56,399 nucleotides of DNA, from positions 6,321 through 62,719 of the forward strand of contig DYFQ01000015.1 of NCBI GenBank assembly GCA_020725105.1, written 5' to 3'. Shown here in pieces: positions 1-655 of the stretch. Origin of the DNA: Symbiobacterium thermophilum (lineage in GTDB: Bacteria; Bacillota; Sulfobacillia; DYFQ01). Both the position numbers and the translations under genes were made by a program. Numbering within the stretch: the stretch's first letter is position 1; the number at the start of each line of letters is the position of its first letter. The notes beneath the pieces are model-generated. The model had not been told where the DNA came from. It did not search any database and saw nothing but the letters and a program-made list of their open reading frames with translations.

Positions 1-655
1 GCACGAACAGGGTCAGCGCCTCCATGAAGGCCAGCCCCAGCATCATCGAGGTCTGCAGCCGGCCGCCGGCCTCGGGCTGGCGCCACACGGCGTCCAGCGC
101 GGTGACGGCCGTCCGGCCCTGGGCCCGGGCAGACCCGAAGGCGGCCACGCCCATGGCCAGCACCGCCATGGCCGCGAACAGCCCCGCCCGCTCGGCGACG
201 CCGGACAGCAGGAACACGCTGACCAGCACGAACAGGGTCAGCGCCTCCATGAAGGCCAGCCCCAGCATCATCGAGGTCTGTACCCGGCCGCCGGCCTCGG
301 GCTGCCGCCACACGGCGTCCATGGCCGAGACGGCGGTGTTACCCTGGGCCCAGGCCGAACTGACGGCGGCAAAGGCCATGGCCAGCACGGCAACGGCGGC
401 GAACAGGCCGGCCCGCGGGGCCACGCCCGCCAGCAGGAACACGCTGACCAGCACGAACAGGGTCAGCGCCTCCATGAAGGCCAGTCCCAGCATCATCGAG
501 GTCTGCACCCGGCCTGCCGCCTCCGGCTGGCGCCAGATGGCGTCCATGGCCCGTGTGGCGGCCTTGCCCTGGGCGTGGGCCGACCCGATGGCGGCGGCCG
601 CCATGGCCACGATGGCCGCGGCGCCGAACAGCGCCACATCCGGAATCCCGAACAC
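1..655 (-). CDS. atpE: F-type ATP synthase subunit c, concatenated multi-hairpin form, partial at the window edge
   Basis: Membrane rotor subunit of the F1Fo ATP synthase. The minus-strand frame opens with GTG at 655-653 behind a GGGGGAGG ribosome site and stays open to base 1 (218 codons), so the C-terminus lies outside. It is not one hairpin but at least three, repeating every 75 residues: each unit has an alanine-rich helix, a polar loop with WRQPEA, and a second helix with [12 protein letters not shown] carrying the ion-binding glutamate. All three loops and glutamates seen are intact. The residue after the glutamate is Ala rather than the Ser/Thr of sodium-binding c rings, so proton coupling is the better guess (inference). 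It lies 58 bases downstream of atpB. Normal bacterial c subunits have about 75-90 residues. Confidence 0.9.
   Translation of the reverse strand, partial: [218 protein letters not shown]

Follow-up and report, generated by a model that had tools for sequence, protein, structure and literature searches.

A bacterial F-type atpE encoding at least four tandem hairpins, each with its glutamate, and the rotor ring that it may build

The rotor c protein of the ATP synthase normally has one hairpin per protein. How many protons an ATP costs depends on the number of c hairpins in the ring, and it is not fully understood how this number is fixed. Longer chains occur in the archaeal A-type enzymes, where the K subunit of Methanocaldococcus has three hairpins. 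The K subunit of Methanopyrus joins 13 hairpins in one chain and keeps the binding site in each (PMC2359735). Among bacteria, the acetogens Acetobacterium woodii and Clostridium aceticum encode, within an F-type operon, the c1 subunit of an F/V-hybrid rotor, which has two hairpins with one site (PMC7911925), and an engineered single-chain c10 ring of Bacillus PS3 is active in both synthesis and hydrolysis (PMC8809890).

Here, we analyzed a stretch of 56,399 nucleotides (the window) from an uncultured bacterium that starts at base 6321 of contig C22 (DYFQ01000015.1), in an assembly of 2.74 Mb that is 96.8% complete. The window opens inside an atpE gene. The reading that we prefer, with a probability of roughly 0.8, is that this gene, the sole atpE found in the assembly, lies in a complete F-type operon and encodes four (or 4 + n) tandem hairpins, each with a proton-binding glutamate, and that its chains stay uncut and close into rings whose hairpin number is divisible by four, with c12 as the likeliest size.

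The fused gene and its operon

The atpE frame lies on the minus strand and runs without a stop from a GTG at 655 to the window edge. The features at this end of the window, all on the minus strand, are as follows.

1-190, minus: atpE hairpin 3, residues 156-218, loop WRQPEA, Glu212 (codon 20-22), cut by the window edge
191-415, minus: atpE hairpin 2, residues 81-155, loop WRQPEA, Glu137 (codon 245-247)
416-655, minus: atpE hairpin 1, residues 1-80, loop WRQPEA, ion-binding Glu62 (codon 470-472)
662-670, minus: Shine-Dalgarno-like GGGGAGGT, about 7 nt ahead of the GTG at 655, from its sequence a good ribosome-binding site
714-1439, minus: atpB, subunit a, with the LRLFAN stator arginine motif (PF00119, E = 1.2e-50)
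1436-1741, minus: atpI-like membrane protein, named from position and length, no Pfam match
1738-2046, minus: atpZ (PF09527, ATPase_gene1, E = 1.5e-17)
2115-3503, minus: MurA-like gene upstream of the atp operon, named from sequence, in the same order in the four-hairpin relative G057

The window part of atpE contains three WRQPEA loops and three MEALTLF glutamates (62, 137, and 212) at a spacing of exactly 75. It gave three Pfam ATP-synt_C (PF00137) matches (E = 1.7e-38), and a tandem repeat finder returned a period of 225 with 2.8 copies. An earlier note on this DNA had claimed at least three complete hairpins with a 75-residue period and no stop. The loops, the glutamates, the period, and the open frame all stand, but the third hairpin is 12 residues short, so that two hairpins lie complete in the window and the third for the most part. 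GGAGG-like motifs inside the frame were considered as internal ribosome sites and rejected as starts; they are mostly coding sequence, such as ATG-GAG-GCG.

The fused gene sits in a complete F-type operon, atpZ-I-B-E-F-H-A-G-D-C (atpI by position only), in which atpF, H, A, G, D, and C follow on the contig beyond the atpE stop. The operon encodes F-type alpha, beta, gamma, delta, epsilon, a, and b subunits and is thus not of the A/V type. The NCBIfam profile for the F0F1 subunit C scored above its cut-off, whereas that for the V-type K subunit was far below, and these scores, together with the F-type operon, rule out a V/A-type K subunit. The gene has the subunit c profile, an RQP polar loop and a helix-2 carboxylate in each hairpin, and the operon position of an F-type c, but it holds at least four hairpins in one frame instead of one two-helix hairpin per polypeptide. 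Judged by these sequence characters, it is a variant architecture and no ordinary AtpE member. It had also been proposed that a fused rotor would need AtpI/AtpZ to act differently. Nothing points to this; the atpZ and atpI-like genes are in their usual place, as they are in the operon of G057.

Which ion would such a rotor carry? Helix 1 has a Gln, and helix 2 reads E-A-L. The sodium-site motif requires E-S/T in helix 2 (PMC7793690) and has been given as Q....ET/S (PMC7911925). Because helix 2 reads E-A-L and not E-S/T, the coupling ion is probably H+ rather than Na+.

Of the 34 helix-1 residues, 8-14 differ between units of the window gene, which are therefore not one sequence duplicated by the assembler. 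Helix 2, on the other hand, is nearly identical between units, even at silent sites (18/199 pairwise silent differences versus 38/143 in helix 1, as sums over unit pairs that are not independent of each other), which points to recent homogenization or a younger duplication.

Two divergent genes, each for a protein with LysM plus peptidase-like parts, named from sequence, lie by the atp operon (4529-6022, minus; 6393-7460, plus), and a similar gene lies ahead of murA in G057. Farther along the window, the plus strand at 38398-44339 carries gyrB, gyrA, and then a gene for an RtcB RNA ligase.

Hairpin count across the scaffold gap

The window edge is no biological end but a 100-N scaffold gap inside the repeat (C22:6221-6320). 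Leftward extension, which the earlier note had suggested, led, on the same strand beyond the gap (C22:5956-6220), to a hairpin tail and then a complete hairpin that is closed by a TAG stop. The joints between hairpins 1 and 2, 2 and 3, and the penultimate and last are read gap-free. The two flanks of the gap abut in phase and in frame, with ...TTCGTGC on one side and TGGTCAGC... on the other, and the sequence at the gap-free joints of this gene is TTCGTGCTGGTCAGC. A gap of zero length gives a protein of 306 residues and four hairpins, with Glu 62, 137, 212, and 287 all 75 apart and with WRQPEA and MEALTLF in all four. For an arbitrary gap, such a phase match is expected once in 225; a cut at one repeat-graph junction would produce it whether zero or some whole units are missing. 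The hairpin count of the window gene is four, or 4 + n if the gap hides whole 225-bp units.

All four PF00137 matches of this genome fall in the fused gene, and a profile search of the 96.8% complete assembly found no other c gene, including the separate single-hairpin atpE that the earlier note had suggested looking for. Therefore, as far as the assembly is complete, the genome offers no ordinary atpE from which a ring could be built.

Four-hairpin genes in a second family, and their origin

In a scan of 154 genomes of the class for hairpins per frame, three or more in one frame occurred only in the window genome and in a second family (f36), in each of its four genomes. The fusion thus recurs in relatives, where the earlier note had proposed to look for it. 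The four are separately assembled MAGs:

G057, CAJXZV010000001.1, 5781-6701 of the stretch fetched: 306-aa four-hairpin atpE on a single contig, within murA-atpZ-I-B-E-F-H-A-G-D-C
G149, CALMHV010000397.1, 4737-5657 of the stretch fetched: 306-aa four-hairpin atpE, gap-free on a single contig
G150, QZJP01000038.1: 306-aa four-hairpin atpE, gap-free on a single contig
G044, DYFB01000003.1 and DYFB01000080.1: 306-aa four-hairpin atpE across two contigs with an overlap of 68 identical nt

In G149, a further c gene, which encodes two hairpins in 153 aa, separates atpF from atpH (6219-6680 of the stretch fetched), and its hairpin 1 clusters with hairpin 1 of the first gene. Every glutamate is retained, four in the window gene, four in each f36 gene, and two in the extra G149 gene (six in the 4+2 hairpins of that operon), which rules out a loss of sites as in c1. 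The two-hairpin c would permit rings in G149 that are not multiples of four. The central claim of the earlier note, a fused F-type c with all its glutamates, is borne out by the rest of the contig, by the search for other c genes, and by these four genomes.

In f36, the hairpins cluster by position (bootstrap 85, 99, 90, and 89), and the fourfold gene is therefore older than the split of the four genera. The whole fused frame is under purifying selection, with dN of 0.085-0.133 between genera against dS of 0.55-0.77. The loops are also position-specific and kept across genera, as (R/W)K(K/R)PE, WREP, WKQP(A/E), and W(R/M)QPEA. Since the four hairpins carry different loops, only some of which are the canonical RQP, these sequences argue that the order of the hairpins in the ring matters. 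In three of the four genomes, hairpin 3 is without the loop Glu. An AlphaFold2 model of the G057 chain, of low confidence (pLDDT 52, pTM 0.42), supports eight helices and nothing beyond them.

Among nearby relatives in the class, single-hairpin genes (G025, G023, G043, and G056) have a very similar hairpin sequence. The ordinary AtpE of G025 (JAMCWA010000084.1), for example, closely resembles the window gene in its loop and helix 2 but has one hairpin per gene product. In many families of the class, frames of about 195 aa (190-200 aa) with two PF00137 matches are the sole c form, with no single one. The one two-hairpin locus that we examined, in G027, is a 254-aa frame in a V/A-type operon. 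From the phylum, 398 genomes were drawn, and 26, most of those with at least four matches, were read match by match, a reading that left out genomes with exactly three matches as well as G328 and G352 (one genus, six matches); none of the 26 had more than two matches per frame. Viral contigs and plasmids yielded no relative.

Could the fusion be an artefact, in which copies of a single-hairpin atpE were wrongly joined or a tandem repeat was expanded? The gap inside the repeat and the break of the G044 contigs, likewise inside atpE, would fit such an error. However, the units differ in helix 1, three joints of the window gene are read gap-free, and three separately assembled genomes have the same architecture, gap-free and on one contig each. 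Identical stretches such as those of helix 2 break short-read assemblies in just this way. An artefact is thus largely refuted by the gap-free relatives, and we regard it as extremely improbable. The gap might instead hide one or more whole 225-bp units, at the extreme a full ring in a single chain as in Methanopyrus, and the exact phase of the flanks would be the same for any whole number of missing units. Against this, a zero gap gives exactly the 306 aa of the gap-free relatives, and all four f36 genes have exactly four hairpins. Because these relatives have four, we favor n = 0 and consider a longer chain unlikely. The breaks in both the window scaffold and G044 are probably caused by the near identity of helix 2 between units, and fused atpE genes may, owing to such breaks, be under-counted in databases.

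The four-hairpin genes could also descend from a single ancestral fusion, lost in the lineages between and homogenized in the window gene by gene conversion. An AU test did not reject a clade of the fused genes (p = 0.206), and the silent-site identity of the helix-2 halves noted above would suit gene conversion. On the other hand, in the best tree of the ATP synthase subunits AtpB, F, H, A, G, and D, the lineages G074 and G023/G043/G056, which have single hairpins, branch between the window genome and f36 (supports 85/87 and 91/94), and the fused genes come together in just 4% of bootstrap trees. Moreover, the hairpins of the window gene group in a single clade (99/97) and do not pair by position with those of f36, and the hairpin periods are 75/75/75 in the window gene versus 76/76/77 in f36. 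We therefore favor two independent fusions to four hairpins, while a common origin keeps a substantial minority share of our confidence.

The rotor ring and comparison with known systems

We infer that the chain would be inserted whole into the membrane as eight helices joined by short extracytoplasmic linkers, each hairpin presenting a cytoplasmic polar loop to F1 and a proton-binding glutamate in helix 2. One chain would then form one arc of the rotor ring, rings would close from whole chains, and closure would be restricted to multiples of four hairpins. If the chain stays uncut, a ring count in multiples of the fusion length follows soundly. Known F-type rings have 8-17 hairpins (PMC7003800), so 8, 12, or 16 would be possible for four-hairpin chains, and we consider c12 the most likely size. 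Three chains would build it. Each polypeptide would cover 120 degrees, the angle of one catalytic step of F1, and the cost would be 4 H+ per ATP.

In the main alternative to this working model, the chain would be a polyprotein that is translated whole and then cut by a membrane protease into single hairpins, leaving the ring count free. The linkers are short and exposed, and no sequence feature rules cutting out. However, the f36 linkers RVTPDIAVF, SVDSSRVLF, and RATTPAANLF have no common cleavage motif, and the position-specific f36 loops (KKPE, REPE, KQPA, and RQPE), kept across four genera, are easier to explain if the order in the ring matters. We consider cutting distinctly unlikely, somewhat more so than a longer chain. 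The preferred reading of an uncut chain can be carried a step further, in a tentative proposal to which we give rather less than even odds. A four-hairpin F-type c would have arisen twice in one class; in both cases, three copies would form a c12 ring in which one polypeptide matches one 120-degree F1 step at 4 H+ per ATP, and the position-specific f36 hairpins would provide ordered, non-equivalent sites.

If true, a c12 ring of three chains removes the usual mismatch between the rotor and the catalytic head and fixes the cost at 4 H+ per ATP. Covalent fours of hairpins in a natural F-type c would put a genetic limit on ring size, and they make it testable whether a rotor match to the three-fold F1 is tolerated or favored, and why two lineages of one class reached four. 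Multi-hairpin K subunits of archaeal A-type enzymes and the two-hairpin c1 of acetogens were already known. What appears to be new is a natural four-hairpin F-type c with all sites kept; in the open literature (subscription papers lay outside the search), we found no report of it, nor of any F-type c that naturally has three hairpins or more.

The acetogen c1 shares with the window gene a bacterial F-type operon and a fused multi-hairpin c, and the 4+2 arrangement of G149 resembles the acetogens in having two c genes that differ in hairpin number. The comparison with Acetobacterium made in the earlier note holds in that its two-hairpin c1 exists, but c1 has lost the carboxylate of one hairpin, whereas all four are kept here. 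Similarly, c1 carries the Na+-binding Q....ET, while the window c has the helix-1 Gln followed by E-A-L, which lacks the sodium motif. c1 is also mixed with the single-hairpin c2/c3, whereas the window genome has no partner c gene among the PF00137 matches of its assembly. The methanogen A-type K subunits are alike in having three or more hairpins per chain but belong to an archaeal A/V-type enzyme and have Na+ ligands, in contrast to the F-type profile and the operon with a, b, delta, and epsilon found here. The Bacillus PS3 c10 ring, with its tandem F-type hairpins and short linkers, is functional (PMC8809890), and fusion is therefore compatible with function. It is man-made, with Gly-Ser-Ala-Gly linkers between identical units, whereas the window c is its natural counterpart, the units of which have diverged, as hairpins in such a chain are free to do by position.
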